64,000 nt of DNA. Source: Closterium sp. NIES-65. Lineage: Eukaryota > Streptophyta > Zygnematophyceae > Desmidiales > Closteriaceae. The notes below the pieces were generated by a model. It worked only from the letters and a program-made list of their open reading frames with translations. It searched no databases and was not told the origin of the DNA. The stretch is taken from NCBI GenBank assembly GCA_948144175.1, contig CANXME010001469.1:124001-188000 (forward strand), read 5' to 3'. Shown here piece by piece: positions 11,861-52,906 of the stretch; the stretch's first letter is position 1; each line of letters starts with the position of its first letter. A program made the translations under genes and the position numbers.

Positions 11861-11865
11861 CCCGC

Positions 11866-19380: not shown

Positions 19381-22300
19381 ATGGCTACCCCTAGTGTCCT
19401 AGCTTTTGACGCTGAGGGTCGCGCCATTGACTTTGAGGTCTGGGTAGACGACATGCAGCTGTTCTTACAGTGCGATAGGGCAGACGGTCTTTCTCTCTTT
19501 GACCTCACCTCTGGCGCCGTCCCTGCCCCTGCTGCTGATGCTGACCCCACTGTCCGCTCCCAGTGGGCCACACGCGACGCTGCTGCACGTCTTGCTGTGC
19601 GTCGCCACCTGCCTACCGCTGAGCGCGCGCACTTTAGTCAGTACAAGAGTGCTCAGACCTTGTACGACGCTGTAGTTGCGCGCTACTCCTCCCCTGCCAC
19701 TGCTGCACTGAGCCGCCTCATGCTCCCCTTCCTCTTCCCTGACCTTGCCGCCTTTTCCACTGTCGCTGATCTCATTACGCACCTCCGCACTAGTGACACC
19801 CGCTACCGCGCTGCGCTTCCTGCTGACTTCTGCGCCAAGAACCCCCCCCCCCATGTACATCACTCTCTACTTTCTAGTCACTCGCCTCCCTGACTCCCTT
19901 CGTGTAGTCCGGGACCACTTCCTCGCGGTCTGTCCCACCACTCTCATAGTCGACAGCCTCGAGAAGGCCCTCCTAGCGGCGGAGAAGAGCATAGTCGCTG
20001 TAGGAGCCTCTCGAGGTGACCCCCGCGCCCCCATCTTTGAGGGGTGTTCTCCTTCCCCTCTCTTGCCCTCTGTCGCCTCTGCCGCTGCGGCCGACCTCGT
20101 TGGTCTTGAGTCGGTCGGTGCGGCGTCTGCCCCTAGCGGGAGACGCCGCCCTGGCAAGGGCAAGGGGGGCAAGGGAGCGGGTGGGGCCAGCGGGGGCGGT
20201 GGAGGTGGAGGTGGAGGCGGCGGAGGGAGTGGGGGTGGCGGTGGAGGTGGTGGCGGGGGTGGGGGTGCTAATGGCGGCAGTGGAGGCGGGGGTGGCGGCG
20301 GCGGTGGCGGTGGGAGCGGAGGTGGCGGAGGTAGCGGTGGTGGAGGCGGAGGCGGGGGTGGCGGTGGTGGAGGTGGTCGGAGTGGCGCTTCGCAGCGGAG
20401 CAGCACTGGGGGTGGTCAGCGCCAGCAGCAGCAGCAGCGTTCTCGCGACGTCCCCACCCCTCAGCAGCTCCGTGAGTGGTACACGCAGCGTCAGCGTGGT
20501 GGGGGTTTTGGTCCCTGCACCTACGTTCTTCGCATTGGCAACCGCGCTGGAGAGCAGTGTGGGGGTACCCACACCGCCCAGCGCTGCTTTGGCCGCCTGA
20601 CGGATGCTTGGCGCCAGCAGTTCCCGGAGGCCGCGGAGATCCCCCGCTGGGGAGAGCTGTCTAGGGCTGGTGTAGCTATCTTTGATCTTGACTTTGATGC
20701 TATCCTTGCTGCCATGTATGCTGTGACAATTAGTGATGAGGGTGACTGTTACCGATGTTTCCCGCCCGACCTGGGCATTGGTACTACTGCTCTAGGTGCT
20801 TGTGAGGCTACTGCTCTAGGTGCCAGTGCGTCTGTGCTCTCAGGTACTGGTGAGTCTACACTCTCAGGTACTAGTGAGTCCGCGCTCTCAGGTACTGCGT
20901 CGGCTTCGGCCTCCCACACCTTCACCCTTGACTCTGGGGCGTCTCGCTCCTTCTTTCGGGACCGCACCAAACTCACGCCGCTTAGTCGGCCGGTTGCGGT
21001 GTCCCTGGCTGACCCCTCTGGGGGTCCTGTCCTGTCTCGCTTCTCCACAGTCCTCCCGTGTCCGGCGGCTCCCTCTGGCACCCTGTCTGGTCTCTACCTC
21101 CCCTCGTTCTCTACGAACCTGGTGAGTGGTGCTGACCTACAGGATGCGGGTGTCCACCAGTTCACTCCTGCTCGTCAGCGGGTGACGCACTGCACAGAGG
21201 CTAGCACAGGTCGCCACCTGGCTACGTTTACACGTCAGCCAGGGTCGAGCCTGTACACACTGACCACTGCTTCTCCTCCAGTTCCTGAGTCTGGTAGGGT
21301 CCCTTCGTCTGGTCAGGTGTTTGCTGCAGCGTCCAGGTCTGGTCCTGAGTCTGCCCCCTGTTAGTGTCGTCGCCTGTCTCACGAGACTCTCCTCTGGCAC
21401 CACCGCCTTGGTCACCCCTCTCTGCTTCGGCTCAGAGGCATGGCCTCCCGTCTTCTTGTGTCTGGTCTCCCCCGGTCCCTCCCTCCCCTTCCTCAGGGCC
21501 CTGGCCCTTCCTGTGTCCCCTGTGTCGAGGGGCGCCAGCGTGCTGCCCCTCACTCCTCCTAGTTTCCTCCGACAGAGGCTCCGTTGCAGACGCTTCACAT
21601 GGACGTGTGGGGCCCTACCCGCGTCCGTGGACTAGGTCACGAGCGCTACTTCCTGTTGGTGGTTGACGACTACTCGCGTTACACCACAGTCTTCCCCTTG
21701 CGCAGCAAGGGTGATGTCACTGAGGTGCTGATCGACTGGATCCGCGCAGCTCGTCTCCAGCTCAGGCAGAGCTTTGGCTCGGACTTTCCTGTTTTGCGCC
21801 TGCACTTGGACAGAGGCGGAGAGTTCTCCTCAAGCCTTCTGCGTGCCTACTGTCGTGCACGAGGCATCCGTCAGACCTTCACACTTCCGGACTCACCGCA
21901 GCAATATGGGATTGCAGAGCGCCGCATTGGCATGGTCATGGACGTCGCTCGTACGTCTATGATGCATGCGGCTGCCCCCCATTTTCTGTGGCCGTTTGCG
22001 GTCAGGTACGCGGCGCATCAGATCAACCTCCACCCCAGGGTCTCCAGGCCGGAGACCTCCCCAGCCCTGCTGTGGACGGGGAAGGTTGGCGATGCGTCGG
22101 CGTTCCGGGTCTGGGGATCTCGGGCGTTTGTCCGCGACTTGTCTGCGGACAAGCTGTCCCCTCGTGCTGCTCCCTGCGTCTTCCTGGGGTTCCCCCCCGA
22201 CGCCCCTGGGTGGCAGTTCTACCACCCCACCTCTTGCCGTGTTCTGTCCTCCCAGGACGTCACGTTCGACGAGTCGGTATCCTTCTACCGCCTCTTCCCC

Positions 22301-25300
22301 TACCGCACTCCGTCCCTCCCCCCACCCCCACTCTTCTTGGTACCAGGTCCCCCCCCGGTAGACCCCCTCCCCCCTCAGGGTCCTGCCCCTTCAGGTGTGT
22401 CCCAGGTAGACATGGTCGAGCCTGTTGAGGTCACTGGTGACTCTGGTGCTGCTGAGGGTGCTGAGCCTAGGGGTGCTGTGCCTGGGGGTGCTGAGCCTGG
22501 GGGTGCGGAGCCTGGGGGTGCGGAGCCTGCGGGTACGGAGCCTGGGGGTGCTGAGCCTGGGGGTGCTGAGCCTGGGGGTGCTGAGCCTAGGGGTGCTGAG
22601 CCTGGAGGTGCTGAGACTGGAGGTGCTACGCCTGGAGGTGCTTTGCCTGGGGGTGCTGAGCCTGGAGGTTCTTCGCCTTGAGGTTCTCCGAGTGCTTCGT
22701 CTCGCCGAGAGCCACTCTCCCCACAGGAGCTGCGTGAGTGGTTTGCCCGGCGCTGGAGGCGTGCTGCTGGTGCTGGAGGTTCTTCGGCAGCTGAGGGTGC
22801 TGCTGCCGCGGGACCCGGAGGTGCTCGTACTGGGAGTACTGGAGCTGCTGGGCCTGCGGGTTCGACTGGAGCTGGTGCTGCTGAGGGTGTTGGCGCTGAG
22901 ACCACTACTGGCGGTTCGATTGGCGGTGCTCCTGGGGCTACTGGAGGTGATGCTGGGGGTTCTGGAGCTAGTGGAGGTGCTGCTGGGGGTTCTGGAGCTA
23001 CTGGAGGTGCTACTGGCGGTGCTGCTGGAGCGGGTACTCCTGCTGGGGGTTGTCATGCATTAAATTGGATCAGGACGTAGGACTAGCAATATGAATGCAT
23101 AACAGAGCAGAGTAGGAAGGAAGGAAGTAACGAGAATAAAAAGGAAAGAACCGAGGCCACTGTGTACCAAGCGGGAAACTCAGCGGCCTCGCGAATAACT
23201 ACCGTTGCCTCGCAACGGTAACCCCACGGCTCATACTTAAGAAAGCACCAGAAGATGTATCAGTTGCTTGCTTGTATGTTTCCTCTATAAGCAAAAGAGT
23301 TTATCCCTACCCCGCTCAAGAAGCGACAAGTGGAGGAGCCAATCCCAGCAAGTCATCAAAGGGGTTTCTAATCCCTGTCTCGTCATTCAGCCGAGCTGTG
23401 TGCATCTAGGTTGACGAGGCGGGCTGAGAGCTTTCAACATACAAGCAAGGAAGCCTACCGGCCACGGTAGGCCTACTTAGGATGAACGACCGGTTTAGAC
23501 TAAGGTCAGGACATAGCTATAGAAGAGATGACTTTGCAGCAGAACCCAGTTGGCGTGCAGCTGCAGCTACCTCCGCGGACCGGGCGCCGGTGGCGGATAA
23601 CAAGCGCTCAGCCGCCTCGACCCCCAGAATATATCAGACCCCTCACCAAAGAGACAGAGAGCAGCGCGGTGGTATGGAGTCGTCCAGAGCAGTAGCGTCA
23701 GATCCCGGCGGGACGCCATACGATGTACACTGGGCAAGAGAGGCACGCGCTCGATGGGAAAATCGTCCAGCTACCACGTCGCCAGGGAGAATGCCAGGGA
23801 TGGAAACGGACCGTACTCCAGTAACGGCAGCTTGGCTGCGACGCCCGCAGGAAGGAGAAATGCGCACTCCGAGATATCGCGAGCTGATTCCAAGCCAAGC
23901 GACGGGACGGCTTGAGCCAATCAGTGTGCCCGACCGGAGCCCAGACCGTCGGAAGATGTCGGGAGCCCCGCCGAAGCTGGAGGTCGCGTACAGATTTACA
24001 GGGACGCCAGGAGTGGGACCCACGTTGAAGAACTATCTGATGCAGTTAGTGTGAGAATGGATGAACTAGCAGTGAAAAATGAGTACAAGTAGGAAACCCT
24101 AGAATTGTGTACCCCCTATAGGCTAACCCACAGTAGCCTACACAAGCATAACATATATAATGTTTGACACACCCCCATAGGCAAAGTGGGGGAGAACAAG
24201 GGGTCACAAGACCAGTCAAGCAAAGCAAAGCAAGCTCAGGGTGGATCACAAAGTCACCACACAGTCCGAGCACAAGAGCAGGGCCAGAGGCCAGTTCACA
24301 TGCAGGAGTACAGACATATATATAAAACTAGACAAGCAAGAGCAGGTATATATATATGTCACAGTACAAGTGAAGTCAAGAGGAGAGCAAGTGAGGCAAG
24401 ACAGGTACAAGACCCAGCTGGGTGCAAAAGCGCTGATGGTCACAAGGCGCGAGTGCCTTGGTGAACACATCAGCAGTGTTGGCCTCAGAGGCCACGTACG
24501 CAAGTCGCAACTGACCACGCTGCTGCAGCTCACGAGCAAGGAAGTAGCGGAGAGCAATGTGCTTCGTTCTGTGCTCCAAGCGCTGCTCTCGACACAAGGC
24601 CAGCATGGCCTTGTTGTCTACGTACAGCACTGGAGGAGAACGAGGCGGCTCTCCAAGGTCAGTCAGCAGGTAGGTGAGCCAGCGAAGCTCCTGTGCAGCC
24701 ATGGCCCCGGCGTAGATCTCAGCCTCACAGCTGGAGCCGAGAACCGAAGACGAGCGAGTAGACCGCCACGAGACAGAGCCGGAACCAAGGCTGAAGGTGT
24801 AACCCTGTGACGACCGCTGCGTAGCCTGGTCGTCAGCCCAAGAAGCGTCCGCGTGGCCGGTAAGGACCACTGGACTCCGCCCTCCAAGCACAAGCCCCAT
24901 GCCCGACGTACTGCACAGGTAGCGCAATACCCTCTTCGCTGCAGCCATGTGCTCTGGTCTGTGTCTCCCAGGAGCAACATAGCGTGCAAGAATGCTCAGA
25001 GGGTATGCAAGGTTAGGTCGTGTGCAGGTCATCAGGTACATGAGGCAGCCAACAAGCTCTGCATACGGACCACTCGACTCTACGGACTCATCCGAAGGCA
25101 GAGCTGAGAGTGAGTGGCGAGTAGGCAGAGGAGTGGCCTGAGGCGAGGAGTACGTGAAGCGGAAGCGCTGAAGGACCTGCTGCACCATGTGTGACTGAGT
25201 CAAGGTAATGGTGCGGCGTGCTCTGTCCCGAGTGATCTGCAAGCCAAGGTAGCTGCGCAGTTCACCCAGGTCTGTGCACGTGTGTCTCTTCAGCAGTTCG

Positions 25301-28300
25301 GACTTCACGTAGGCGAGTCCAGCAGTGTCCGCTGTGGCAAAGACCAAGTCGTCGACGTACACGAGGATGTAGAACGGCAGCAGTGAAGTGTCGGTGCGCA
25401 GAAACAGCGACGGGTCAGCAGTAGAAGGAGCAAACCCAAGAGCCGCAAGCGTAGTCCTCAGTGTGTCGTGCCACTCACGCGGTGCCTGGCGGAGACCGTA
25501 GACTGGCCGTCGGAGGCTCCACTGGGTGCCAGGAGGGAAAGTCCCAGTGAAGCCAGGTGGACGGCGCAGCCAGATCTCCTCGTGCAGGCTACCCTGCAGG
25601 AACGCAGTGCTGAAGTCGAGAGAGTGAAGCTCGTAGTCGCGCTGAGCGGCTATGTGCAGCAGCACCCGAAGAGTGGTCATCTTCGGGGTGGGAGAGAAGG
25701 TCTGAAAGTAGTCAACTCCCTGCCGCTGACTGAAGCCACGAGCAACGTACCGCGCCTTGAAGACAGGTGGAGAGCCCGGCGGCCGCTTCACCCGGAAGAT
25801 CCAAATGCCACTGACGATGTTCGCCCCAGGAGGGGGAACTGCGTCAACGTAGGTGCCTGTGGACTTCCAAGAAGCCATCTCTGCATCCATAGCTGCCTGC
25901 CACTGAGAGGAGTAGGGACCCTCTACGGCCTCCGCGTAAGAACGCGGAGTCGGGATGTCTAGTGCATCCGGGTCTCCCTCAGGGGCAAGCAGTACAGACG
26001 CGAGATGAGGTGAAGCAGCCGCTAGACACTGTAACTCCTCCTGTCTGTCCTCTAGGACGTCCGTGCCAAGAGCACACTCACCCCCGACGGACGGAGGACA
26101 GACAGACGCAGACTCAGCAACAAGACCAGCAGCGTAGTCGAGACGACAGCGAGCAGCAAAGTCAACGAGCTCAGCGACTAGAGCAGACGCAGCAGTGGAC
26201 TCAAAAGAGGGGTCAGTGACGACAGTAGCAAGCAGACGCGTGATAGTAGGACTGGCAGCGCGAAGAGAGTCCGACTCAGGGTCGGCAAGCGCAGGAAGAG
26301 AGGACTCAGGAGGAGAAGGCAAAGGGGCACGCAGAGGAGCAGTGGACGGACGCAGAGACATCCGGTGCGTGCCAGGGACAGGAGGAGGACGCTGACGCGA
26401 ACCGCGACCACTAGCGCGAGCAGCACGAACAGGCGACGCGGGACGAGACGCAGGCTCACGACGCTCAGCAAGACCTCCAGTAGGACCAGTGTAAGGAGAG
26501 GGAGCAGGCAGAGGAGAGGAAGGCTCCAACAGTGACTGCGACTGGACAGGCTGTGGACACTCTACCGAAGGAGAAAGACCAAGAACCTGCTGTAGGAGCG
26601 GAACGAAGTACGGCCGAGGCCGCGCGGCAGCTCTAGACTCAGCAGGGACAGCACCAGCACCCTCAGCGACAGCACCAGCGCCACCAACACCTCCAGCGGC
26701 AGGACCTCCAGCAGCACCAGCAGTAGAACCACCGCCAGGACAGACAGCAGTAGTCTCAGCACCAACACCCTCAGCAGCTCCAGCTCCAGTAGGACCCGCA
26801 GGCCCAGCAGCTCCGGGACCGGCAGCACCAACACCCTCGACGGTCGACGAAGCTCCAGCTCCAGCAGCACTCCTCCAGCGGCGAGCAAACCACTCGCGCA
26901 GCTCCTGTGGAGAGAGGGGCTCCCGGCGAGACGCAGCAGCAGGAGAAACCCCAGGCTCAGCAGCTCCAGACTCAGCACCCCCAGGCACAGCAGCTCCAGA
27001 CGTAGCACCCCCAGGCTCAGCAACTCCAGACTCAGCACCTCCAGGCTCAGCAGCTCCAGACTCAACACCCCCAGGCTCAGTAGCTCCAGCTCCAGTAGGA
27101 CCTGCAGGCCCAGTAGCTCCGGGACCGGCAGCACCCGCAGCAGGCGAAGAAGCTCCAGCTCCAGCAGCACGCCTCCAGCGGCGAGCAAACCACTCGCGTA
27201 GCTCCTGTGGAGAGAGCGGCTCCCGCCGAGACGGAAGAACCGGAGAGCCGCCAGGTCCAGCAGGCGCAGGCTCCGCACCTCCAGGCCCAGCACCCCCAGG
27301 CTCAGCAGCTCCTGACGTAGCACCCTCCGGCTCAGCACCCCCCGGCTCAGCACCCCCAGACTCAGCACCCCCCGGCCTCGCACCCCCAGGCTCAGCACCC
27401 CCAGGCTCAGCACCCCCAGCAGCAGCACCAGACTCAGCAGCAACCTCGACTGGCTCGACCGTGTCTACCTGGGACACACCCGAAGGGGCAGGAACCTGAG
27501 GGGGGAGGGGGTCTACCGGGGGGGGAACTGGTACCAGGAAGTCCGGTGGGGGGGGAAGGGAAGGAGTACGGTAGGGGAAGAGGCGGTAGAAGGGGACTGA
27601 CTCGTCGAACGTGACGTCCTGGGAGGACAGAACACGACGAGAGGAGGGGTGGTAGAACTGCCACCCTGGAGCGTCAGGGGGGAAGCCAAGGAAGACACAG
27701 GGAGCAGCACGGGGGGACAGCTTGTCCGCAGACAAGTCGCAGACAAACGCCCGAGATCCCCAGACACGGAACGCAGACGCATCGCCGACCTTCCCCCTCC
27801 ACAGTAACACTGGGGACATCGCGGGCCGAGAGACCCTGGGGTGAAGGTTGAGCTGATGCGCCGCGTACCGAACCGCAAACGGCCACAGAAAATGGGGGGC
27901 AGCCGCATGCATCATGGACGTACGAGCGACATCCATGACCATGCCAATGCGGCGCTCAGCAATCCCATTTTGCTGTGGAGAGTCCGGAAGCGTAAAGGTC
28001 TGGCGGATCCCCTGTGCACGACAGTAGTCTCGCAGAAGGCGAGAGGAGAACTCCCCACCTCGGTCAGAGTGCAGACGCAGAACAGGAAAGTCCGAGCCGA
28101 AGCTCCTCCTGAGCTGGAGACGAGCCTCGCGGATCCAGTCGATCAGCACCTCAGTGACAGCACCCTTGCTGCGCAAGGGGAAGACTGAGGTGTAACGCGA
28201 GTAGTCGTTATCCACCAACAGGAAGTAGCGCTCGTGACCCTGCCCACGGACGGGGGCCGGGCCCCACACGTCCATGTGAAGCGTCTGCAGAGGAGCCTCT

Positions 28301-31300
28301 GTCGGGGGAAACTGGGAGGAGTGAGGAGCAGCCCTGAGGCGCCCCTCAACACAGGGGACACAGGAAGGTCCTGGTCCCGAAGGAAGGGGAGGGAGAGACT
28401 GGGGAAGACCAGAGACAAGGACACGGGAAGCCATGCCCCGAAGACGGGGCAAGGAGGGGTGGCCTAGACGGTGGTGCCACAGAAGAGTCTCGTGAGACAG
28501 GAGGCGACACGAACAGGGGGCAGACTCAGGACCAGACCTGGACGCAGCAGCAAACACCTGACCCGACGCTGCTACCTGACCGGACGCGGGGACAGGAGGA
28601 GACTCAGTGGTCAGGGTGTAGAGGCTCGACCCCGGCCGACGCGAGAACGTGGCCAGGTGCCGGCCTGTGCGTGCGTCCGTGCAGTGGGTCACCCGCTGAC
28701 TCGCAGGAGTGAACTGGTGAACCCCCGCATCCTGTAGGTCTGCACCACTCACCAAGTTCGTCGAGAACGAGGGGAGGTACAGGCCAGACAGGGTGCCCGA
28801 GGGGGCAGCCGGACACGGGAGGACAGTGGAGAAGTGAGCGAGGACAGGACCCCCAGAGGGGTCAGCCAGGGAGACTGCAACCGGCCGACCAAGCGGCGTG
28901 AGTGTGGTGCGGTCCCGAAAGAAGGAGCGAGAAGCCCCAGAGTCAAGTGTAAAGGTGAGGGAGGCCGAAGCCAACGCGGTACCTGAGAGCGCAGCCTCAC
29001 CCGCACCTGAGGAAGCAGACTCACTAGCACCTAGAGCAGCAGCCGCACCTGTACCTGGAGCAGGAGACTCACTAGCACCCAGAGCAGCAGCCTCACCAGT
29101 AGCTAGAGCAGCAGGTCCTATACCTGGGTCAGGCGGGACGCACAGGTGACCGGCACGGTCAGCACTAGTAGGCAATGCATACATGGCAGTGAGAATAGCA
29201 TCATAGTCAAGAGCATATATATCTACCCTCTGCCTAAGCAACTCCACCCAGTCGGGAAGCTCAGCCTCGTCGCCAAACACGGTACGCCAGGCATCGCTCA
29301 GACGGGCGAAGCAGCGGGACGGTGTATGACTACGTGTCCCACAAGGCTGACCAGTCCGAGTACCAGTGCGAATCACGTAAGAGCAGCGAACAGCACTGAG
29401 AGACCCTCCACTCTGAGCGTACCACTCACGAAGCTGGCGAGGCGTGAGAGACACGCGAGAGGGTCGCGGGAGCTGCATCTGGCCGCCACCACGAGGAGAA
29501 GCAGCAGGAGTGGTAGTAGGAGTAGCGTCGCCACCCCTACAGCCCCAACCAGCGTACCACTAACGCAGCTGCTGGGGCGTGAGGGACTCACGCAGGCGTC
29601 GCTGGGGCTGCATCTGGCTCCGCAAGTAGAAGCAGGAGCAGGACTAGCAGCAGGAAGGCAGGCAGCCAGGCAAGCCAAAAGGCAGGCAGGCAGGCAAGCA
29701 GGCGACGCGCAGCGTGCTAGCAGGGCAAGAGCTCACCAGTGGTGGGAAGAGTAGGCTCGGCGACTCAGCGGCTCGGCAGCTCGGCGGCTCGGCGGCTCGG
29801 GCGACTCGGGCGGCTCGGCGGCAAGGCGGCTCGGCAGCAACTGCAGCTCAGCAGCTCGGTGACTCGGCGGCTCGGCGGCAGGGCGGCTCGGCTGCTGGGC
29901 GGCTCGGGTGCAGGGCGGCTCGGCGGTGGGGCGGCTCGGCTGCTGCAGTGGGAGATGAAGGAGGAGGAGAAGCAGGGGAGGCCACACACCTGCCACCCCC
30001 CTGCTGGCCTCTCCCGTCGCCTGTCGAGGCGACCTGAGGGGGCCGCTTGCGGCTCGGGGGTGGGGCGGCTCGGCTGCTGCAGGTGAGCGGCTCGGCTGCT
30101 GTAGTGGGAGATAAAGGAGGAGGAGAAGCAGGGGAGGCCACACACCTGCCACCCCTCTGCTGGCCTCTCCCGCAAGCGGCCCCCTCAGGTCGCCTCGACA
30201 GGCGACGGGAAAAGGGGGGGTGGGTGGTGGGGGCCGGTAGGTGCAGCGGCGGGGCCAGCAGGTGCAGTTGCGGGGCCGGTAGAAGGGGACGGCAGGAGCC
30301 GTCAGGAGGGGACGGCGGGGCCGTCAGGAAGGGACGGCGGGGCCGTCACGAAGGGACGGCGGGGCCGTCAGGAGGTGACCGGGCCGCGACGGGGGCAGGC
30401 GGCGGGGCCGCGTAAGGGCCTGGGCGGGGCCGCGACAGAGTCGTCGGCGGGGCCGCGTGAAAGCCGGGGCGGGGCCGCGTAGAAGCCGGGGCGGGGCCGC
30501 GCGAGAGCAGGCGGCGGGGCCGCGAAGGAGCCGGGGCGGGGCCGCGTGAGAGCAGGCGGCGGAGCCGCGTAAGGGCCTGGGCGGGGCCGCGACAAAGCCG
30601 TCGGCGGGGCCGCGTGAAAGCCGGGGCGGGGCCGCGTAGAAGCCGGGGCGGGGCCGCGCGAGAGCAGGCGGCGGGGCCGCGAAGGAGCTGGGGCGGGGCC
30701 GCGTGAGAGCAGGCGGCGGAGCCGCGTAAGGGCCTGGGCGGGGCCGCGACAAAGCCGTCGGCGGGGCCGCGTGAAAGCCGGGGCGGGGCCGCGTAGAAGC
30801 CGGGGCGGGGCCGCGCGAGAGCAGGCGGCGGGGCCGCGAAGGAGCTGGGGCGGGGCCGCGTGAGAGCAGGCGGCGGAGCCGCGTAAGGGCCTGGGCGGGG
30901 CCGCGACAAAGCCGTCGGCGGGGCCGCGTGAAAGCCGGGGCGGGGCCGCGTAGAAGCCGGGGCGGGGCCGCGCGAGAGCAGGCAGCGGGGCCGCGAAGGA
31001 GCCGGGGCGGGGCCGCGTGAGAGCAGGCGGCGGGGCTGCGACAGAGAGGGCGGCGGGGCCGCGTCAGTGAAGGCGGCGGGGCCGCAGGGGAAATGGCGAC
31101 CCGAGGGGTCGCTAAAAAAAGATCGCGCCTCGGGGGGCGCTTCGGTGGGCCCAAAAAAAAAACGGTCCGTAGAAGGACCCGCTCTATACCATGTGAGAAT
31201 GGATGAACTAGCAGTGAAAAATGAGTACAAGTAGGAAATGTCAGATTATTATAGCTGATGCATGTTTGTAGGCTATAGTGGGGTAGCACATATGGGGTAC

Positions 31301-34300
31301 AGTTTGCTAGGGTTGTATTTGTACCCAACTCTGACTTAGTCAATTCATTCCTGTTCAGTTAGTTTCACATGGTATAGAGCGGGTCCCTCCTAAGGACCGT
31401 TCTTTGGGCCCACCCACGATTTTTTTTTTTTTTTTTCCTGCCCGGAGCGCGCCCTATTCTCCCCGAGGCGCGCTCCCCCTAGTGCGCGTCGAGCTGCCCT
31501 TGTGGCGCCCCGAGAGTCGCGCGCGCGACTCATTTTTTTTCGCGCGCGCGGCCCAGGCCCCACTTCGCGCGGCCCTTACAGCCGCGCCGCGCCGCCCTCT
31601 CGGCTCTGCCGCGCCGCGCCGCCCTCAAGACGGCTGCGCGGCCTCTTCGTCGCTGCAGCAGGCCCCCCCCGCTGCACCTCTGTCGGCCCCGCAGCCGCCT
31701 TACCTGACGGCCGCCGCCTCACCTGACGGCCCGCCGCCTCGACTTCTGGCCCGCCACCTCACCAGACGGCCCCCCCGCCTCACCTGACGGCCCACCGTCT
31801 CACCTGCTGGCCCGCCACCTTACCCGACGGCCCCGCCGCCTCACCTGACGGCCCGCCGCCACCTTACCTGACGGCCCCGCCGCCTCACCTGACGGCCCGC
31901 CGCCTCACTTACTGGCCCGCCACCTGACCTGACGGCCCCGCCGCCTCACCTGACGGCCCGCCGCCTCACCTGCTGGCCCGCCACCTCACCTGACGGCCCG
32001 CCGCCTCACCCGCTGGCCCGCCACCTGACCTGACGGCCCCGCCGCCTCACCTGCTGGCCCGCCACCTGACCTGACGGCCCCGCCGCCTCACCTGACGGCT
32101 CGCCACCTCGCCTGCTGGCCCGCCACCTGACGGCTCCGCCGTCCCCTGCCCCGGCCGCGCCGCTGCACCCTGACGGCCCCGCCGTCCCCTGTCCCGGCCC
32201 CGCAGCTGCACCCTGACGGCCCCGCCGAGCCGCCCAGCAGCAGCCGAGCCGCCCAGCCGCAGCCGAGCCGCCCAGCAGCAGCTGAGCCGCCCAGCAGCAG
32301 CTGAGCCGCCCAGCAGCAGCCGAGCCGCCCAGCAGCAGCCGCGCCGCCCAGCAGCAGCCGAGCCGCCCTGCAGCAGCCGAGCCGCCCAGCAGCAGCCGAG
32401 CCGCCCAGCAGCAGCCGAACCGCCCGGTACCCGAGCTACCCGAGCCGCCCGAGCCGCCCGAGCCGCCCGAGCCGCCCGACCCAGCCCGAGCTGCCTGCTG
32501 CTGTCCTACCCGACTCTCCTAGCCCGGTGAGACTTTCAGCTGCTGCCATGGCCACCCCCAATGTTCTTACTTTTGACGCTGAGGGGAGGGCCATTGACTT
32601 TGCCGTCTGGATTGAAGACCTGCAGCTGTACTTACTGTGTGATGCGATAGATGAGGTCTCTCTCTTTGACTTTGTCTCTGGCGCTGTCCCTGCCCCGCCT
32701 GCTGATGCTGACTCTGCTGCTCGCTCCAAGTGGGCGACCCGCGATGCTGCTGCACGTCTTGCTGTGCGTCGCCACCTCCCTTCCTCTGAGCGTGCCCACT
32801 TTATTCAGTGCAAGACCGCTCAGGCCTTGTACGACGCTGTAGTTGCACGCTACTCCTCCCCTTCCTCCGCTACCCTTAGCCGCCTCATGCTACCGTTCCC
32901 CTGGGGGTGCTGAGCCTGGGGGTGCTGAGCCTGGGGGTGCTGTGCCTGGGGGTGCTGAGCCTGGGGGTGCTGAGCCTGGGGGTGCTTCGTCTCGCCGGGA
33001 GCCACTCTCCCCACAGGAGCTGCGTGAGTGGTTTACCAGGCGCTGGAGGCGTGCTGCTGGTGCTGGTGGTTCTTCGCCTGCAGTGGGTACTGCTGCCGCG
33101 CGTCCCGACGGTGCTCGTACTGTGGGTGCTGGAGCTGCTCGGTCTGAGAGTTCTCCTGGAGCTGGTACTGCTGAGGGTGTTGGCGCTGAGCCTGCCGCTG
33201 GTGGTCCGACTCACAGTGCTCCTGGTGCTGCTGCTGGGGGTTCTGGAGCTTCTGGAGGTGCTGCTGGAGGTGCTGCTAGCGTGGGTCCTCCTGACGGGGG
33301 GACTGGTGCTGTTCCTGCTGTTTCTGGTGTCGCCGTGCGGCCTCGACCGTACTTCGTTCCGCTCCTACAGCAGGTTCTTGGTCTTGCACCTCCTCCTGCT
33401 TCCTTAGAGGGTCCACAGCCTGTTCGGTCACAGCCACAGCTACAGCCTGCCTCCCCTTTGCCTGCTCCTTCTCCCTACGCTGGTCCGACTGGAGGTCTTA
33501 CTGAGCGTCGTGAGCCTGCGTCTTGTCCTGCGTCGCCTGTTCGTACTGAGCGCGCTAGTGGTCGCGGGTCGCGTCAGCGTCCTCCTCCTGTCCCTGGCAC
33601 GCACCGGATGTCACTGCGTCCGTCCACTGCTCCTCTGCGTGCCCCTTTGCCTTCTCCTCCTGCTTCCTCTCTTCCTGCTCTTGCCGACCCGGAGTCGGAC
33701 TCTCTTCGTGCTGCCAGTCCTACTGTCACGCGTCTCCTTGCTACTGCTGTCACTGACCCTTCCTTTGAGTCGTCTGCTGCGTCTGCCCTTGTCACTGAGC
33801 TTGTCGACTTTGCTGCGCGCTGTCGTCTAGACTACGCTGCTCGTCTTGTCGCTGAGTCTGAGTCCGCCTGTCCTCCGTCCGTCGGGGGTGAGTGTGCCCT
33901 TGGCACGGACGTCCTAGAGGACAGGCAGGAGGAGTTACAGTGTCTAGCGGCTGCTTCACCTCATCTCGAGTCTGTACTGCTTGCCCCTGAGGGAGACCCG
34001 GATGCACTAGACATCCCGACTCCGCGTTCTTACGCGGAGGCCGTAGAGGGTCCCTACTCCTCTCAGTGGCAGGCAGCTATGGATGCAGAGATGGCTTCCT
34101 GGAAGTCCACAGGCACCTACGTTGACGCGGTTCCCCCTCCTGGGGCGAACATCGTCAGTGGCATGTGGATCTTCAGGGTGAAGCGGCCGCCGGGCTCCCC
34201 GCCTGTCTTCAAGGCGCGTTACGTGGCTCGTGGCTTCAGTCAGCGGCAGGGAGTTGACTACTTTCAGACCTTCTCTCCCACCCCGAAGATGACCACTCTT

Positions 34301-37300
34301 CGGGTGCTGCTGCACATTGCCGCTCAGCGCGACTACGAGCTTCACTCCCTCGACTTCAGCACTGCGTTCCTGCAGGGTAGCCTGCACGAGGAGATCTGGC
34401 TGCGCCGTCCGCCTGGCTTCACTGGGACTTTCCCTCCTGGCACCCAGTGGAGCCTCCGACGGCCAGTCTACGGTCTCCGCCAGGCACCGCGTGAGTGGCA
34501 CGACACACTGAGGACTACGCTTGCGGCTCTTGGGTTTGCTCCTTCTACTGCTGACCCGTCGCTGTTTCTTCGCACCGACACTTCCCTGCCGCCGTTCTAC
34601 ATCCTCGTGTACGTCGACGACTTGGTCTTTGCCACAGCGGACACTGCTGGACTCGCCTACGTAAAGTCCGAGCTGCTGAAGAGACACACGTGCACTGACC
34701 TGGGTGAACTGCGCAGCTACCTTGGCTTGCAGATCACTCGGGACAGAGCACGTCGCACCATTACCCTGACTCAGTCACACATGGTGCAGCAGGTCCTTCA
34801 GCGCTTCGGCTTCACGTACTCCTCGCCTCAGGCCACTCCTCTGCCTACTCGCCACTCACTCTCAGCTCTGCCTTCGGATGAGTCCGTAGAGTCGAGTGGT
34901 CCGTATGCAGAGCTTGTTGGCTGCCTCATGTACCTGATGACCTGCACACGACCTGACCTTGCATACCCTCTGAGCATTCTTGCACGCTATGTTGCTCCTG
35001 GGAGACACAGACCGGAGCACATGGCTGCAGCGAAGAGGGTATTGCGCTACCTGTGCAGTACGTCGGGCATGGGGCTAGTGCTTGGAGGGCGGAGTCCAGT
35101 GGTCCTTACCGGCCACGCGGACGCTTCTTGGGCTGACGACCAGGCTACGCAGCGGTCGTCGCAGGGTTACACCTTCAGCCTTGGTTCCGGTTCTGTCTCG
35201 TGGCGGTCTACTCGCTCGTCTTCGGTTCTTGGCTCCAGTTGTGAGGCTGAGATCTACGCCGGGGCCATGGCTGCACAGGAGCTTCGCTGGCTCACCGACC
35301 TGCTGACCGACCTTGGAGAGCCGCCTCGTTCTCCTCCAGTGCTGTACGTAGACAACAAGGCCATGCTGGCCTTGTGTCGAGAGCAGCGCTTGGAGCACAG
35401 AACGAAGCACATTGCTCTCCGCTACTTCCTTGCTCGTGAGCTGCAGCAGCGTGGTCAGTTGCGACTTGCTTACGTGGCCTCTGAGGCCAACACTGCTGAT
35501 GTGTTCACCAAGGCACTTGCGCCTTGTGACCATCAGCGCTTTTGTACCCAGCTGGGTCTTGTACCTGTCTTGCCTCACTTGCTCTCTTCTTGAATTTACT
35601 TGTACTTTGTCATATATATACCTGCTCCTGCTTGTCTAGTTTTATATATATGTCTGTACTCCTGCATGTGAACTGGCCTCTGGCCCTGCTCTTGTGCTCG
35701 GACTGTGTGGTGACTTTGTGATCCACCCTGAGCTTGCTTTGCTTGACTGGTCTTGTGACCCCTTGTTCTCCCCCACTTTGCCTATGGGGGTGTGTCAGAT
35801 TATTATAGCTGATGCATGTTTGTAGGCTATAGTGGGGTAGCACATATGGGGTACAGTTTGCTAGGGTTGTATTTGTACCCAACTCTGACTTAGTCAATTC
35901 ATTCCTGTTCAGTTAGTTTCACAGGAAACCCTAGAATTGTGTACCCCCTATAGGCTAACCCACTGTAGCCTACACAAGCATAACATATATAATGTTTGAC
36001 AGTTAGAGACCGTGCAGTATTGCTGGGAACGGGATGGACTGGATCCGGCGGAGTTCTTCAGGCGGATGGTGGTTACACTGGCCGGAGAGGCCGAGACATT
36101 TTACCGTATGACGCGTCAAGACGTACTCGATGAGCTGGCCTGCGGAGAAATCGAGAATCCAACGGCGCGGTTCGTCGAACTTTTGAAGAAGGAGTTCCTG
36201 GGGCAAACTAAGGCGCGGGTAGAGGAGTTTCGGGAGTTTCGGCGGGGAAAAGACGAATCTCTGCTCGCATACTACTGCCGGCTAAGGGAACTGGCGGAAG
36301 ATTTAGAAAGCCGAGACGAACGGCTGCTGGTCCGGAAGTTCGTACGGGGTTTGGACGAGGAACTCCGGAGCGTGGTGCGGAACACCGTCTACGGAGTGGG
36401 GGCAGATATCACCCTGAAAGAGGTGTACGGATTAGCGAAGCGCACGGAACACGCACAACGGATGCTAGATTTGGAAGACAGCGACGCACGGCCTAAACCC
36501 AAGTCGGCTTGGGCAGCGGCAGCGATAACGGAGACGCCAACGGGAGGCGCGTCAAGGAGCAACGCTCGCCGCTGTCACGAATGCGGGGAACCCGGTCACC
36601 TGAAGCGCGAATGCCCTAGGTTACCAGCCTGCGAGAATTGCGGGAAGCGGGGACACAAAGAAGACGCGTGTTATAGCCGGCGTCGCCTCGAAGATACGGC
36701 TAGCAAGGAAGAGCTACAGGCGGAGATCAAACGGTTGCAGCTGAGACTAGGGCAGAAGCCGCAGCCGGAGCTGAAGGCTCGGGCCATGCTAGCGTATGAA
36801 GAGGTCGAAGGGGAAGAGGAAGGTGAAGGGGAGTATCTGCGGACGGGCGGATTTATGGCGTTTCCACGAGACAGGGACGATTTGGAGCTCAGAATGAGAG
36901 GGAGTCAATCCTCCGAAAGCCGCACGAGCCGGGTGCGGGAGCCTCGAGGGAATCGGCAGGAAGGGAGTAGTACTTCCGAGCTGAGGCGCCACCCCAACGA
37001 ACGGCAGGTGTGCCAGGCCTCGGTCCTGGTAGCAGAAAAAGGGAGCCTGACGGTGGGAGGGCTTCCAGTGGGGCAGGCGATCGTAGACACAGGTGCTCAC
37101 TATGTGTTGATCGGCAAAGGGTTGGCAAAACAACTGAAGCTAGACTTACCCGGGAGGCTCGTGCAGCGGGGCATTCTTCTCATGACTGCGGAAGGGGGAG
37201 AGCCGAAGTGGATGCCGCGGACAGTGCGGCCCATCGAGATCGTGTTGCTCCCCGGGACGGACAAGGAATGCTGCATCCGCGTGACCTGTGGCGTCTCGGA

Positions 37301-40300
37301 ATCCGAAGACTATGACGCGCTCCTCGGCATGGACCTATTGTATCGGGTGGGGGCCACCATCTGCACTTGGCAAGAGAAAGTACTATACCGAGTCCATTAC
37401 TGGGACCCCGAGAGCTCGGTGGGGACGCTGCCAGCGAAGTTCGTCAAACAAGAGCCGAGAGAAGCGTACGGGGCACGAGCCGCGGACTTGGGGCCGGTCC
37501 TAGACGACTGGAGTTGGGAGCGGTACGCGGAGGAGTACGAACGGCGGGTAGAGAGGAGGCACCAAGGGAGGGAGCCGGTGTCCCTGAAGGAAAGGGTGTC
37601 GCGGTTGTGGACCCTGGATGGAGCTATCTGCATCGTAGAGTTATACGGAGGCATCGGCACGGGACTGGCCGCGGCCCTACGAGCTGGCTGCAGAGTGAGG
37701 AAGTGGATCCACGTCGAGCGGGACCCCGTGGCACGATGCATGGCCCAGCATCATGCACGACTCCTGCTAGCGGAATACCCAGATCAGTTGACGGAGTCGG
37801 CACTACCGGAGGAGGCCGAAGAAGGGGTGGATGACGTGCAGAAGATCACCGAGGCTACCTTAGAGCAGTGGGGGCAAGTAGACCTTATCGTGGCCGGATG
37901 GGAATGCCAAGGATATTCCCGCACGGGAGAAGGCATGGGGATGCAAGACATGCGCGGGGCTTCCTTCAGAGACTTGAGGAGGGTTCTAGAGTTGGTACAG
38001 GCAAGGCAGGGGGAGGTGCTGTACATCCTGGAGAACGTAGACTTCGCCGATGAACGGCGGGAACCAGTGCGGAGAGCGTTCGCGGAAGTGGAAGAAGCGG
38101 TGGGAAGGGGACAGGCAGTAGACGCGGCACAGCTAGGCTCACGGGCACATCGGCCACGCAGGTACTGGCAGAATGGGATCTCCGACGCCAGTCTAAGGCA
38201 CTCCTTGGCCCAGATGCAGAGGCCCGAACCGAGACTAGTCAGTGACATCCTGGGCCCCAACCGCTTGCCAGCCCCAGTCACTGTGCCAGACCATCCGTCC
38301 CAGTACCAGTGCAACACGCCCGGAAAACCGAGGCAGGCGCTGCCGACCCTCGTCTCGTACGTAGATGCATATGGGTTCGTGATGGAAGGGGACCTGCCTG
38401 GGCCGGGGATGATATACGACGTCATTAATAAGCAATGGGAGCAGCCGACAGCCGAAGAGAGGGAGCTAGCCATGGGGCACATGCTAGGAGCTACGGCGCA
38501 CCCAAGAGTCACGGAGGCGCAGAGGCGAGCAGCCTTGGGACGGGCGATGGACCTGAACGTCATGACTTGGCTGGTAGAGACGATTCGCATGCAGCTGAAG
38601 CGGAAAGAGCTCCAGCGGGGAATTGAGATCAGTGAGATATACCAAGAAGAGGAGGAAGGGTCGCACCGGAGGAGGCAGCTGCGATCCCTCGAAGAGCAAC
38701 AAGAGATGCGTATTCTGGAAGGATGGGCGCATATGGCAATGGAAATAGACAGAGAGACAGTGGATTCGAAGGTATTGCCCCCTGATGGGGAGATCGGGGC
38801 TCAGGAGGAGAAGCCGAGTGTGGAGCGCGGACCTGAGGAGGTCTGGCCCGTAGGCTCGGGAATGGGAGCAGTAGAGGCAGCCGCGCTGCAAGAGGTGCTA
38901 AAGGGACACCGCCAGACGTTCGCCTACACGCTGGCCGAGCTGGGGCGCTGCAACTCGCACCAAATGCAAGTGAAGCTGACTACGGAGGTACCGATATACC
39001 AGCGGAAAAGGAGGATGAGCCCGAGGGACCTGGACATTTGTCGGGAGAAGTGCGCTGAGTTGCTAGCAGCAAGACTGATCCAAGCATCGGACAGTGATTA
39101 CGCGGCGGCGACGGTAGTGGCAGCTCGGAAGGACCTGACAGGGGAGGTGTCCGCGCGACGGATGTGCGGAGACTACCGAGGGTTAAACAAAGTGACGATA
39201 GCCGACCGGTATCCCATGCAGTCCGCGGAAGAGATCTTTGACCAGCTGTACGGGGCCGTGGTGTTCAGTACACTGGACCTCAGGCAGGGGTTTAACCAAA
39301 TCCCGATCAAGGAAGAAGATATGAAGAAGACGGCCTTCCACGGACCGGACGGGCTCTACGAATGGAAGTTTATGCCTTTTGGCATGAAAAACGCGCCGGC
39401 ATTGTTCCAGCGAGTGATGGATTCGGTGCTCCGGAAGGTCCCAGCCGCGGCATGCTACATTGACGACGTCATAGTGTTCAGTGCCTCGGCTGAGCAGCAC
39501 GTGAAGGACGTGCGAGACACCCTGGACGCCATCCATGCGGCTGGACTGACCTGTCACCCAAAGAAGTGCAGCTTTGGGAACACAACAGTGAAGTATCTCG
39601 GCTTCGAAGTGCAAGGGGGGCAGCTGAGCATTCAGCAAGCTAAAGTGGAAGTGCTGGACCGGGTCCCCGCCCCGAAAGACCGCAGTACCCTGAGGGCCGT
39701 GTTAGGCTTCCTGAACTATTATAGGAAGTTCGTGCCTAACTTCAGCCGCATCGCCGCCGTCCTGAATCGACTGCTGCGGGAGGACCAGGCGTGGCAATGG
39801 GGAGAAGAGGAGCAGGGAGCGCTCAAGGCCCTCCTCCGAGCCGTAAAGACGGGGACGGTCCTCACCTTGCCCAGCAAGGAGGACCCGTTCGTGCTGTATA
39901 CTGACTGGAGCAGTGCCGGCATGGGAGGCATCTTGTGCCAAGAGCGAGACGGGCAAGAGATGGTTGTGGCGTTCGCGAGCCGGAGCTGTAACCCGGCCGA
40001 AGCTAACTACAGTTCGTACGAGGGAGAGGGACTAGCCGCGGTGTGGGCTATCACACACTTCCGTGTGTACTTGCAAGGGAGACCATTCGAGCTGGTGACA
40101 GACCACCAACCGCTGACGTGGCTGATGACCAACCAGGCTCTGACAGGCCGGAACGCACGATGGGCCATGCGGCTACAGGAATACGAGTTCACGATACGGC
40201 ACCGAGCAGGGAAGACGCTACAACACGTGGACGGGCTCTCCCGTAACCCGCCTCCCGCGAGCCCCGAAGCCTGCCTGGTAGCTCTAGCTCGGGACATCGA

Positions 40301-43300
40301 CGGGGAAGGAGCTAAGAAGAGGGGGCAGAAGGGAGCGGACGACATCTGGGCAGACGAAGAGACTCTGCGCTGGGTGCAGGGTAAAACGTCGGAGTCTGAA
40401 CCAGCCAGCGAGAGAGCCCGCGCCAGAGGTGTACATTACCGGTGGTATCAGGACCAGCTGCAGAAAAACACCAGAGAGGGGTGGAAGCTGGTACCGAGGA
40501 AGCAGGAACGCGAGGGGATCATAGCAAGGGTGCACAGACAGCTGGGGCACTACGGCAGCCTGCGGACGAGCCAGCTGGTAGAGACCGGGTGGTGGTGGGC
40601 AGGGATGCGAGGAGATATCAAGGCATGGGTGGACTCTTGTGAGCTGTGCAGTCGGAACAAAGCCGCGCTGGAGAGGGGGAGAGAAGAGCTGCATTCGCTC
40701 CCCATCAGAGGAATTGGGTTCAGATGGTCACTGGACCTAGCAGGCGAGATGCCGCTGAGCAGGAGAGGAAAGCGATTCATTCTCATCATGATTGAGCATG
40801 GGAGTAAGTGGGTGGAAGTGAGAGCTTTGCCAAGCAAGAACTCGGCTCGAATCGCAGAGGCGTTCGAGGACCAAGTGCTCACGCGGTTTGGGGCATGCGG
40901 CGAGGTCCTGACGGACCAGGGCACCGAGTTCCTGGGGGAGTTCGAGAAACTCTTGAAGGCATGCGGTATCACTCACCGGCGGACCTCCAGGTATCATCCG
41001 CAGAGTGATGGGCTCACTGAGCGATTCGTGCAGACAGTAAAGAAGGGGCTGAGGGCCTACGGAGAGCAGTACAAGCGAGACTGGGATGCACGGCTCCCGT
41101 GGGTGGTAGCCGGGTACCGCTTCAGCAAACAGGCTGCACTCAAGGACTTCTCGCCTTACTATTTGCTGCTGGGACGGGAGCCGATCCTACCAATTGACGC
41201 CCCGCGGGTACTGACAGACGTGGTTACCACCAGCTCAGAGGATGCATGGGTGGGGCTGGCAGAGACGCGGGCACGATATTTGCGGGAGATGCTGCCGGCA
41301 GCACTGGAAAACTTGCAGGTGGCACAGCTCAGAGATGCCCAGCGCTACAGGCAACGAAGGCAGGGGCAGGCCGGACATGCAGGCAGCAACATCAAGGTCG
41401 GAGAAGAAGTGTATGTCAAGCAGGCAAGGAAGGACCTGCTGGACATTGGGCTCAGCACGGAGAGGTGGCGCGTGAAGGAGATCAAGGAGTCTGGCGTGGT
41501 GGTGCTAGTGGGGGAGAAGGGACAAGAAAAAAATGATCACCGGACCAATGTGGCTAAGGCCCGGCCCCAGCGGAGAACTCAGGAGTCAGGGCAGCCAGAG
41601 CAGAGGCACGAGCAGTCTTTCCAGCAGAGAGTCCATCGGCGAGACTGGCCCGTGGCAGAGCCTACGCCGAGGAGGGGGCAAGTGAGAAAGCCTGAGATAG
41701 CAACCACAGGCCTGAGCAGAGAGCTGAAGAACTTGCAAGGGTGAGACACGAACATGTGCACAGACAGAGGATCAGAGGAAGTATGAGTAACCTAGATGTG
41801 GAGTTTTCGACAGCTGTCATGCATTAAATTGGATCAGGACGTTGGACTAGCAATATGAATGCATAACAGAGCAGAGTAGGAAGGAAGGAAGTAACGAGAA
41901 TAAAAAGGAAAGAACCGAGGCCACTGTGTACCAAGCGGGAAACTCAGCGGCCTCGCGAATAACTACCGTTGCCTCGCAACGGTAACCCCACGGCTCATAC
42001 TTAAGCAAGCACCAAAAGATGTATCAGTTGCTTGCTTGTATGTTTCCTCTATAAGCAAAAGAATTTATCCCTACCCCGCTCAAGAAGCGACAAGTGGAGG
42101 AGCCAATCCCAGCAAGTCATCAAAGGGGTTTCTAATCCCTGTCTCGTCAGTCAGCCGAGCTGTGTGCATCTAGGTTGACGAGGCGGGCTGAGAGCTTTCA
42201 AGTGAGAAAGCCTGAGATAGCAACCACAGGCCTGAGCAGAGAGCTGAAGAACTTGCAAGGGTGAGACACGAACATGTGCACAGACAGAGGATCAGAGGAA
42301 GTATGAGTACCCTAGATGTGGAGTTTCCGACAGGGTACTGGTGCTGTCCCTGCTGTTTCTGGCGTCGCCACGCGGCCCCGACCGTACTTCGTTCCACTCC
42401 TGCATCAGGTTCTTGGTCTTACACCTTCTCCTGGTCCTCCTCCTCCTCCCTTAGAGGGTTCACAGCCTGTCTAGTCACAGTCACAGCTACAGCCTGCCTC
42501 CCCTTTGCCTGCTCCTTCTCCCTACACTGGTCCGACTGGAGGTCTTACTGAGCGTCGTGAGCCTGCGTCTCGTCCTGCGTCGCCTGTTCGTACTGCACGC
42601 ACTAGTGGTCGCGGTTCGCGTCAGCGTCCTCCTCCTGTCCCTGGCACGCACCGGATGTCTCTGCGTCCGTCTACTGCTCCTCTGCGTGCCCCTTTACCTT
42701 CTCCTCCTGCTTCCTCTCTTCCTGCTCTTGCCGACCCAGAGTCCGACTCTCTTCGTGCTGCCAGTCCTACTGTCACGCGTCTACTTGCTACTGCCATCAC
42801 TGACCCTTCTTTCGAGTCTACTGCTGCGTCTGCCCTTGTTACTGAGCTCGTTGACTTTGCTGCTCGCTGTCGTCTAGACTACGCTGCTAGTCTTGTCGCT
42901 GAGTCTGAGTCTGCCTGTCCTCCGTCCGTCGGGGGTGAGTGTGCTCTTGGCACGGACGTCCTTGAGGACAGGCAGGAGGAGTTCCAGTGTCTGGCCGCCG
43001 CTTCACCTCATCTCGTGTCCGTACTGCTCACCCCTGAGGGAGACCCGGATGCACTTGACATCCCGACTCCGCGCTCTTACGCGGAGGCGATAGAGGGTCC
43101 CTACTCCTCTCGGTGGCAGGCAACTATGGATGCAGAGATGGCTTCCTGGAAGTCCACAGGCACCTACGTTGACGCTGTCCCCCCTTTTGGGGCGAACATC
43201 GTCAGTGGCATGTGGATCTTCAGGGTGAAGCGGCCGCCGGGTTCTCCGCCTGTCTTCAAGGCGCGTTACGTGGCTCGTGGCTTCAGTCAGCGGCAGGGAG

Positions 43301-45473: not shown

Positions 45474-46024
45474 ACACAGAAAAAATAGCTATAACGGAAT
45501 GGGTAAATCAGGAACATCATACGGTTGTAACTTTGGTTACCAGGAAAACCAATGAGGTTCGGAAACTTCGCACAACCCACGCGTCCAGCCACTGTCGGAA
45601 ACTGTCCTCGCAGCTAGTCGTCGGCATCCCTGTGGGCCACGTATGGGTCCAACTCACTGCTCCTTCGACCAGTTCACCATTGCACTGCGCGGCACTGCAC
45701 CGTGCAGAACTGCACTGTACTCCACTGCACGGAACAGTGGAACGAGTACAACCAGAGAGAGGGTGGAAAGCCAGGCACACCTCAATAGTGGCTTCGTGGC
45801 GAAGCGTGGAACGTGGAACATGGATCATCACTCCGTTCCAAGTTCCAACAACCTCCAGCTTTCGTCATTCCTCATACACTCTGGCTTGACTTCATTCCGC
45901 TCGTCCTGAATTTGAATAATTTCGTATGCTCACGTACTTTCACTGACCAACTGATTCGACGCCGACCATTACAGTACATGACGTCTCATTCTTGTGGGTG
46001 AATCACTCATAGCACCGCGGAACC
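45474..46024 (+). other. 5' flank of the host gene
   Basis: No gene is recognised. A cluster of imperfect CACTGCAC / GTGCAG repeats, able to fold, lies at about 45670-45735. I see no convincing TATA box near the start codon at 46025, so the promoter and transcription start are not resolved. Confidence 0.45.
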
Positions 46025-51970
<5,946 letters not shown>

Positions 51971-52300
51971 TCTTCGGTTGTATAGTGCAATGGAGTGCAC
52001 TGGAGTGAGTGAGTACTCCCGTGGATTGCAAGGGTCATTCCACAGTGCTATGGGGAAATTCAGAGGCTGTTCACACGAAAGGAAGACGTCCATTGGCCGT
52101 TGTCAGGTAGAATGCTGTGCCCCCTCCAAACCATACACCCTGTTTTCAGTAATCTGACTAGTATCAGCAATGTTTGCAAATCATGACCATTTCATGAGTG
52201 AATAGTTTTTTCAAGGCAGAAACAAAACCATAATAAAAACGCGCCATAATTCATACCCCCGCGTATTACAATATAGGGTGTATTGATAATAATCCCCAAT
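51971..52300. other. 3' flank of the host gene
   Basis: AT-richer sequence with no gene seen. Several AATAAA-like stretches could serve as polyadenylation signals (for example ATAATAAAAA near 52230). The boundary with element H to the right is not resolved. Confidence 0.4.
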
Positions 52301-52309
52301 GAAGGTGGG

Positions 52310-52699
52310 TGTTGATTTTATGGGTTGCGAAGCAACCCTTAACGATCGATTTTGACAAATGTTATTTTCATATTTATAAAACATGAAAATAAAATTTGTA
52401 AACTACAGTACCGTTCCTGTAAGGAATTTTCCGGATTCCTTACTGGGTCACACTGTACGCGTACAACTCCGACTTTCGGAAAACCAGGCTCGGCCCGCCG
52501 ACCTCGCCTCCCGAGCCACCACCGCATCGTTTTCGGGTTTCCAATCCCGAACCTGCACCCAACCATCTCGCGACCCCGCGACCTCGGCCTAGCTAACCTT
52601 GCTATATTATGCATAGGCCCCGTTGTTCATGCTGCAGACGTTGTAATCACTTCCGCATTATTGAGTTCTGCGCACTCTTTCCTTTCACAACTTATAACA
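52310..52699 (+). repeat. Element H 5' LTR (left end approximate)
   Basis: Inferred from the primer binding site just downstream. It includes a hairpin GGGTTGCGAAGCAACCC near 52321 and a TATA-like GCTATATTATGC near 52601. Confidence 0.5.
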
Positions 52700-52906
52700 C
52701 TTGGTATCAGAGCCTAAAGTCCTAGGTTGCCCTCGCGTTTCCGGGGTCGTTTGTAGAAGGGGAGCGATAGACTTAGTGGGCTGTTAAGCGGTCGGCCCGT
52801 GGAATAGATCTGATTATTCCACTCCGACTACGATAGCATTAACGCCTTCACCGAAGTCAGAAAAATCGCGAACCACCCCCTGCCCGTTCGACGAAGCCTG
52901 AGGCAC

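Follow-up and report, generated by a model that had tools for sequence, protein, structure and literature searches.

An interrupted Ty3/gypsy element, probably of a Closterium-like alga, encoding a DNMT3-type cytosine methyltransferase between protease and reverse transcriptase

The interrupted element and its terminal repeats

The window, by which the whole analysed stretch of 64,000 nucleotides is meant, harbors a gypsy element that is laid out as A1–coding–B1–A2–B2, starts with TGTC and ends with GACA. The element is itself nested within a copia copy, and copia copies occupy much of the window. Its parts are as follows.

23047..23050, no strand: 5' target duplication GGGT (4 bp), read directly from the sequence
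23051..23437, plus strand: repeat A1, 387 bp, opening the element with TGTC, 98.7% identical to 41815-42201; likewise present in L039 and L040
23482..24049, plus strand: gag-pol frame, 5' part, roughly 190 codons, within the open frame 23428-24054
24050..36001, no strand: nested retroelement insertion (11,952 bp, TG...CA), with GTTAG duplicated at 24045-24049 and 36002-36006
36000..41744, plus strand: remainder of the frame, stop-free over 1914 codons (open-frame reading)
41679..41812, plus strand: repeat B1, ending in GACA and overlapping the frame end, 98.5% identical to B2
41813-41814: 2-nt spacer GC between B1 and A2, from the sequence
41815..42201, plus strand: repeat A2, beginning with TGTC, recognized by its identity to A1
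42199..42332, plus strand: repeat B2, element end GACA, from repeat comparison
42333..42336, no strand: 3' target duplication GGGT, from the sequence

The 5' part of the frame is opened by an ATG at 23482, downstream of the end of A1 at 23437, and reaches 24049, where the insertion at 24050-36001, which contains further copia sequence, splits it. In the uninterrupted copies L039 and L040, the stretches matching both frame parts adjoin in a single frame of 2119 codons. The earlier note's remark that no premature stop is seen holds for the 1914-codon 3' part, but with its frame split by the 11,952-bp insertion the window copy in its present state would not yield a normal Gag-Pol. The insertion seems to be nested too, as a further copia-type insertion apparently interrupts its second terminal repeat, of which 31192-31238 and 35923-36001 are the two pieces.

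The A–coding–B–A–B arrangement is found in the window and in four of the five copies fetched from the genome, the exception being L042, which has only A1 and B1. The B1/A2 junction, GACA-GC-TGTC, has the same form in L039, L040, and L041, with AC as the spacer in L043, and 4-bp target duplications flank these copies as well (CTTC in L039, CAGG in L040, and ACTT in L041, all exact; CAGG versus CAGC, three of four positions, in L043). The A1 and A2 repeats of L041 are 100% identical over 371 bp, so its insertion is probably recent. The form of the B1|A2 junction, together with the GACA and TGTC outer ends, suggests that the integrase inserts a molecule ended by the two sides of the inner B|A junction; the RNA would lose its termini, which the inner junction would supply again, and integration would be retroviral in style. 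Such a supply of lost termini by an inner junction is the scheme proposed for DIRS elements. L042, with its single A and B, has the same 236-bp piece of flanking sequence at either side where the other copies have 4-bp duplications, possibly reflecting a different integration or repair route. A short hairpin lies at 23453-23472, between A1 and the ATG; a hairpin of differing sequence also occurs in L039–L042, across two families, and none was seen at this position in L043. It could have a role in priming or translation.

Domains of the polyprotein

The larger part of the frame encodes the following domains, all on the plus strand.

36570..36617, plus strand: CCHC zinc knuckle (PF00098), with a second CCHC next to it by sequence
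37050..37343, plus strand: aspartic protease (PF13975, E=2.6e-5, 25.1 bits, below the cut-off of 28.2), its DTG read directly
37590..38624, plus strand: DNMT3-type C5-cytosine methyltransferase domain, from profile match, sequence, and predicted fold
37905..37907, plus strand: codon of the catalytic Cys in motif IV (GWECQG), with the Glu codon at 37902-37904 directly before it
39159..39611, plus strand: reverse transcriptase with YIDD (PF00078, E=2.3e-32)
39879..40184, plus strand: RNase H (PF17917, E=3.3e-34)
40500..41000, plus strand: integrase, zinc-binding part and DDE core (PF17921, E=2e-14; PF00665, E=1.2e-9)

The order of protease, reverse transcriptase (RT), RNase H, and integrase, the DDE integrase, and the short target duplication of fixed length are those of Ty3/gypsy elements. 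The repeat layout is DIRS/PAT-like despite the gypsy domains, but elements of that class have a tyrosine recombinase and make no target duplication; here a Pfam search of the polyprotein found no recombinase domain, and an rve integrase and 4-bp duplications occur instead. The same search found no PHD finger in the window element. In all five fetched copies the methyltransferase lies between the protease and the RT.

Motifs I, IV (with its Cys), VI (ENV), VIII, and X are present in order, and the PF00145 match of the single window sequence is significant, standing barely above the cut-off. A full DNMT3-like fold is predicted, at about 20% identity to DNMT3A/DNMT3B; DNMT3 is the closest known class by both sequence and predicted fold, and the motifs lack the DRM-type rearrangement. 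In a 40-row tree with few references and a long-branch warning, the domain groups with DNMT3A and P0078 (100/100), and the phage enzymes stand separately. The earlier note's reading of a complete C5-methyltransferase within a gypsy polyprotein is thus borne out by profile, motif order, and predicted fold.

To our knowledge, a proline before the catalytic cysteine is near-universal in C5-methyltransferases; the window element has glutamate there. Among 108 related domains, 18 of which were unreadable at motif IV, this residue is Glu in 59, Pro in 26, Ser in four, and Asp in one, with Pro in the Klebsormidium nitens and Marchantia rows. At least 11 changes of the residue on the methyltransferase tree, together with these mixed residues, mark the change from Pro to Glu as labile and recurrent, which questions how strict the proline need is in these enzymes. 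The catalytic Cys is invariant in 11 of 11 aligned rows, and Cys and ENV are conserved in all 30 copies picked by methyltransferase score. Since the Cys and the remaining motifs are retained and the PF00145 score passes its threshold, the missing Pro is not decisive against the C5-methyltransferase class. A rival reading has the domain altered in its catalysis, so that it would work within Pol as a structural component, bind DNA or RNA, or act as an RNA methyltransferase. The frequency of Glu and its repeated replacement indicate that Pro is not needed for persistence, and the related KnitGypsy domain showed no methylation in yeast, a result given as inconclusive in PMC5890265. Binding alone, however, would not demand the Cys, the ENV Glu, the motif VIII Arg, and motif I, all of which are kept in the alignments, nor does it sit well with the full DNMT3-like fold predicted, and an altered domain seems improbable.

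Copy number, retention, and selection

In the 874-Mb assembly of 2400 contigs, the profile PF00145 marks at least 123 places (123 of 901 candidates scored) and the window's own methyltransferase domain at least 116 (116 of 1516 candidates scored). With 11 places common to the two lists, at least 228 are found altogether, in several families, so that the domain is indeed multi-copy; these places are not equivalent to proven independent insertions, as some contigs are perhaps allelic or duplicated. No stop interrupts 51 of the 116 own-domain places. Some PF00145 places follow one another at even steps of about 7.06–7.09 kb, or about one element length (G000:C995:460522, 467586, and 474650; G000:C382:36104 and 43192), and may be tandem head-to-tail copies. 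At G000:C430:2964722 and 2974020, a 99% RT copy has a methyltransferase piece (96%) about 9 kb farther upstream, which suggests that this copy is likewise split by a nested insertion.

Retention was checked in copies picked by RT, which avoids a choice based on the domain itself, at no fewer than 116 places (116 of 13,146 candidates scored). Where RT identity is at least 88%, 65 of 71 copies have the own-domain methyltransferase just upstream at the expected distance, and two more have a PF00145 place (67/71). Among the matches listed at lower RT identity, the domain accompanies 17 of 31 at 79–87% and 0 of 14 at 73–77%, plus one and three by PF00145, absence at these identities meaning little. 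In the 65 RT-chosen copies, the methyltransferase is stop-free in 39 and the RT in 41, and the methyltransferase alone is broken in 13 and the RT alone in 11 (p=0.84); the methyltransferase domain decays no faster than the RT. The outcomes that the earlier note had named as fatal to its claim, namely an insignificant match or a domain seen in one copy and decaying faster than its neighbors, did not materialize, given the significant match, the presence of the domain beside the RT in nearly all close copies, and its RT-like decay.

For the larger family, compared in 210 pairs of 21 loci, dN/dS is 0.066 for the methyltransferase, 0.071 for RT, 0.074 for gag-PR, and 0.152 for the linker. In the young family (21 pairs, 7 loci), the values are 0.233, 0.152, 0.129, and 0.257, respectively, the methyltransferase standing above RT and gag-PR and near the linker. 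The sample comprises 28 of 30 loci selected by methyltransferase score (L013 and L017 were dropped, each with one segment out of frame), and the pairs are not independent; between families dS is saturated, with 56 to 143 of 147 pairs kept, depending on the segment. The low dN/dS in the larger family and the RT-like decay support the earlier suggestion that the domain is kept by selection. The CpG observed/expected ratio is 0.79–0.87 in the elements, compared with 0.72 and 0.75 in the copia stretches of the window, 0.78 at window positions 46000-64000, and 0.97 at 1-20000, so that, against copia and other window parts, no clear deamination footprint of self-methylation is seen.

Relatives, domain orders, and trees

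Three protein searches returned 31 matches, 56 matches, and the best 120 of 768. Related polyproteins occur in Closterium sp. NIES-53, 54, 65, 68, and Naga37s-1, in Klebsormidium nitens, Haematococcus lacustris, and Marchantia polymorpha, and in many metagenomes; the RT of the window element is 75% identical to that of Closterium NIES-53. This likeness among elements, as distinct from any comparison of host genes, points to Closterium or a close kin as the probable host. The single-sequence PF00145 score, just over its cut-off, might be put down to chance similarity, to an error of assembly, or to a passenger domain in decay, but the homologues in other algae, Marchantia, and metagenomes, the many genomic places with their stop-free share, the full predicted fold match, and the low dN/dS leave such explanations a negligible probability. 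It is practically certain that the interrupted element in the window is one copy among many of a Ty3/gypsy retrotransposon, probably of a Closterium-like alga, whose Gag-Pol includes a complete DNMT3-type C5-methyltransferase between protease and RT.

Both domains could be located in 108 proteins, with the methyltransferase before the RT in 49 (order I) and after it in 59 (order II). The window element belongs to order I (PR-MTase-RT-RH-INT), and order II reads RT-RH-MTase-INT-PHD. Of the rows whose tail is long enough, all 52 order-II rows and 4 of the 19 order-I rows show a PHD-like pattern there, a count that uses a simple pattern, leaves out 36 too-short rows, and misses at least P0110, in which Pfam detects a PHD. 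In a 129-row RT tree of rows with at least 330 RT query positions matched, the methyltransferase-bearing rows fall in one set of 102 (SH-aLRT 99). In a careful tree of 68 chosen rows, with P0172 and two rows from the same genome added, 51 rows form one clade (100/99), which includes Klebsormidium P0034, Marchantia, Haematococcus, and metagenome elements, with order II nested within it (100/99); similarity to the window governed the choice of rows, in many cases via the methyltransferase itself. No methyltransferase was detected at E 1e-3 in P0129, P0140, and P0142, which belong to this clade and have integrase and PHD, so the domain is not indispensable everywhere in the clade; other rows are too short to judge. 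P0094, a EukProt entry with RT-RH-INT-PHD of the same clade, is named as a Trinity transcript, implying that some member of the clade is transcribed. P0073, a gypsy-type polyprotein from a metagenome, carries PF00692, which we take to be a dUTPase.

The methyltransferase tree of 88 rows (those with at least 255 model positions, plus DNMT3A) separates orders I and II, and in the 40-row tree one branch (98/97) splits 23 retroelement methyltransferases from DNMT3A, the eukaryotic P0078, and phage enzymes. These trees, with DNMT3A, P0078, and phage enzymes as the outside references, seem to favor a single capture followed by a single move, whereas PMC5890265 proposed that the K. nitens lineage acquired the domain independently; repeated capture keeps some probability. 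The odds are about balanced that a gypsy lineage captured DNMT3 once, very early in green-plant history (or that it spread horizontally among algae), and that the domain has been selected from chlorophytes to a liverwort, with one move within Pol, pairing with PHD, and repeated replacement of Pro by Glu. If so, these retrotransposons would form a lineage that brings along a writer of DNA methylation, joined by a histone reader in the largest of the sampled branches, and would not be an accident peculiar to Klebsormidium.

A possible role in marking new cDNA

DNA methylation is a main weapon of hosts against transposons, and it must therefore be asked what an element gains by keeping, under strong selection, a de novo methyltransferase of its own. 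Being made as part of Gag-Pol, the methyltransferase would enter the particle together with RT and integrase. It may then methylate the double-stranded cDNA de novo as soon as this has formed, before integration, and the new copy would be marked as host-like, or protected, by the time it reaches the genome. Whereas the domain with its predicted fold, motifs, and position, the repeats, the 4-bp duplications, the many copies, and purifying selection are observed, co-packaging, catalysis, the element's own cDNA as substrate, and a benefit are inferred. A precedent for activity is given by the SymbioDIRS-Dnmt3 domains, which methylate CG in yeast according to PMC5890265. The motif IV Glu, the negative yeast result for KnitGypsy, called inconclusive in that source, the lack of a clear CpG footprint, the dN/dS of the young family, and the three relatives without the domain count against it, and methylation of cDNA by a packaged enzyme is given an even chance.

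The methyltransferase may instead act on the host genome, brought to chromatin by the integrase or, in relatives, by the PHD, where it would silence the landing site and keep down the number of the element's own copies or the damage that the host suffers. Chromatin is where DNMT3 relatives act, and the PHD-like pattern that is so regular in order-II tails is typical of a chromatin reader; the large number of methyltransferase places would also fit. The window element, however, has no PHD, and self-restraint should not select the domain as strongly as the RT in a multiplying family, which makes action on the host genome unlikely for this element, if slightly less so than a catalytically altered domain; in the PHD-bearing relatives, marking of the landing site is favored a little. 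Taken together, the identity of the element, its lineage, and methylation of its cDNA form the best explanation, with a probability of roughly 60%. With several families, partly young, in a Closterium-like alga and with the relative found in Marchantia polymorpha, a genetically tractable land plant, the question of the element's gain would become accessible to experiment.

Comparison with known systems

The precedent that the earlier note mentioned for dinoflagellates and a charophyte alga is found in PMC5890265 (2018), the available portions of which describe these host groups, and PMC12344493 (2025) states, in the part available, that some DNMT3s lie within retrotransposons, as reported in streptophytes and dinoflagellates. 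KnitGypsy-Dnmt3 of Klebsormidium nitens, as portrayed in the available portions of PMC5890265, has a DNMT3-related domain in gypsy Pol before the RT, A–coding–B–A–B repeats (the legend of Fig. 4c gives a DIRS repeat structure with gypsy domains), purifying selection on the domain, and multiple copies in a streptophyte alga, all of which it shares with the window element; the two very probably belong to the same lineage. They differ in host, in copies (fewer in K. nitens than in Symbiodinium according to these portions, compared with at least 228 places in several families here), and in the 4-bp target duplications documented here. The K. nitens protein P0034 (KFL_009030040, partial), which is not equated with a published copy, has the same MTase-RT-RH-INT order, with identities of 40% over 264 residues for the methyltransferase and 42% for RT; the stretch from motif I to motif IV of its methyltransferase falls 46 residues short of that in the window element, and motif IV reads GWPCQG, where the window element has Glu.

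SymbioDIRS-Dnmt3 and SymbioLINE-Dnmt of Symbiodinium, in the same portions of PMC5890265, are likewise retrotransposons with a captured C5-methyltransferase, and the former has the domain in Pol and the same repeat layout; these are tyrosine-recombinase or LINE elements, whereas the window element is a gypsy element with a DDE integrase. The DNMT3A/DNMT3B catalytic domain differs from that of the window in the motif IV Glu and the setting within Gag-Pol, in addition to its low identity. The PHD-bearing order-II gypsy elements of metagenomes and Haematococcus lacustris (P0026) have homologous methyltransferase and RT domains within one RT clade, but place the methyltransferase between RNase H and integrase and add the PHD, neither of which applies to the window element.

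The element type is thus already known from the available portions of PMC5890265, and so is the combination with the end structure that the earlier note had thought new; the present elements look like members of a green-lineage family that is much wider. The novelty proposed for the host holds to the extent that titles and abstract openings, from few subscription journals, yielded no report of such elements in Closterium, Marchantia, or chlorophytes, or of the PHD type. New here are a Closterium-like host with several families, an RT clade spanning Klebsormidium, Marchantia, Haematococcus, and metagenomes, two domain orders, one of them with PHD, and the recurrent change from Pro to Glu.
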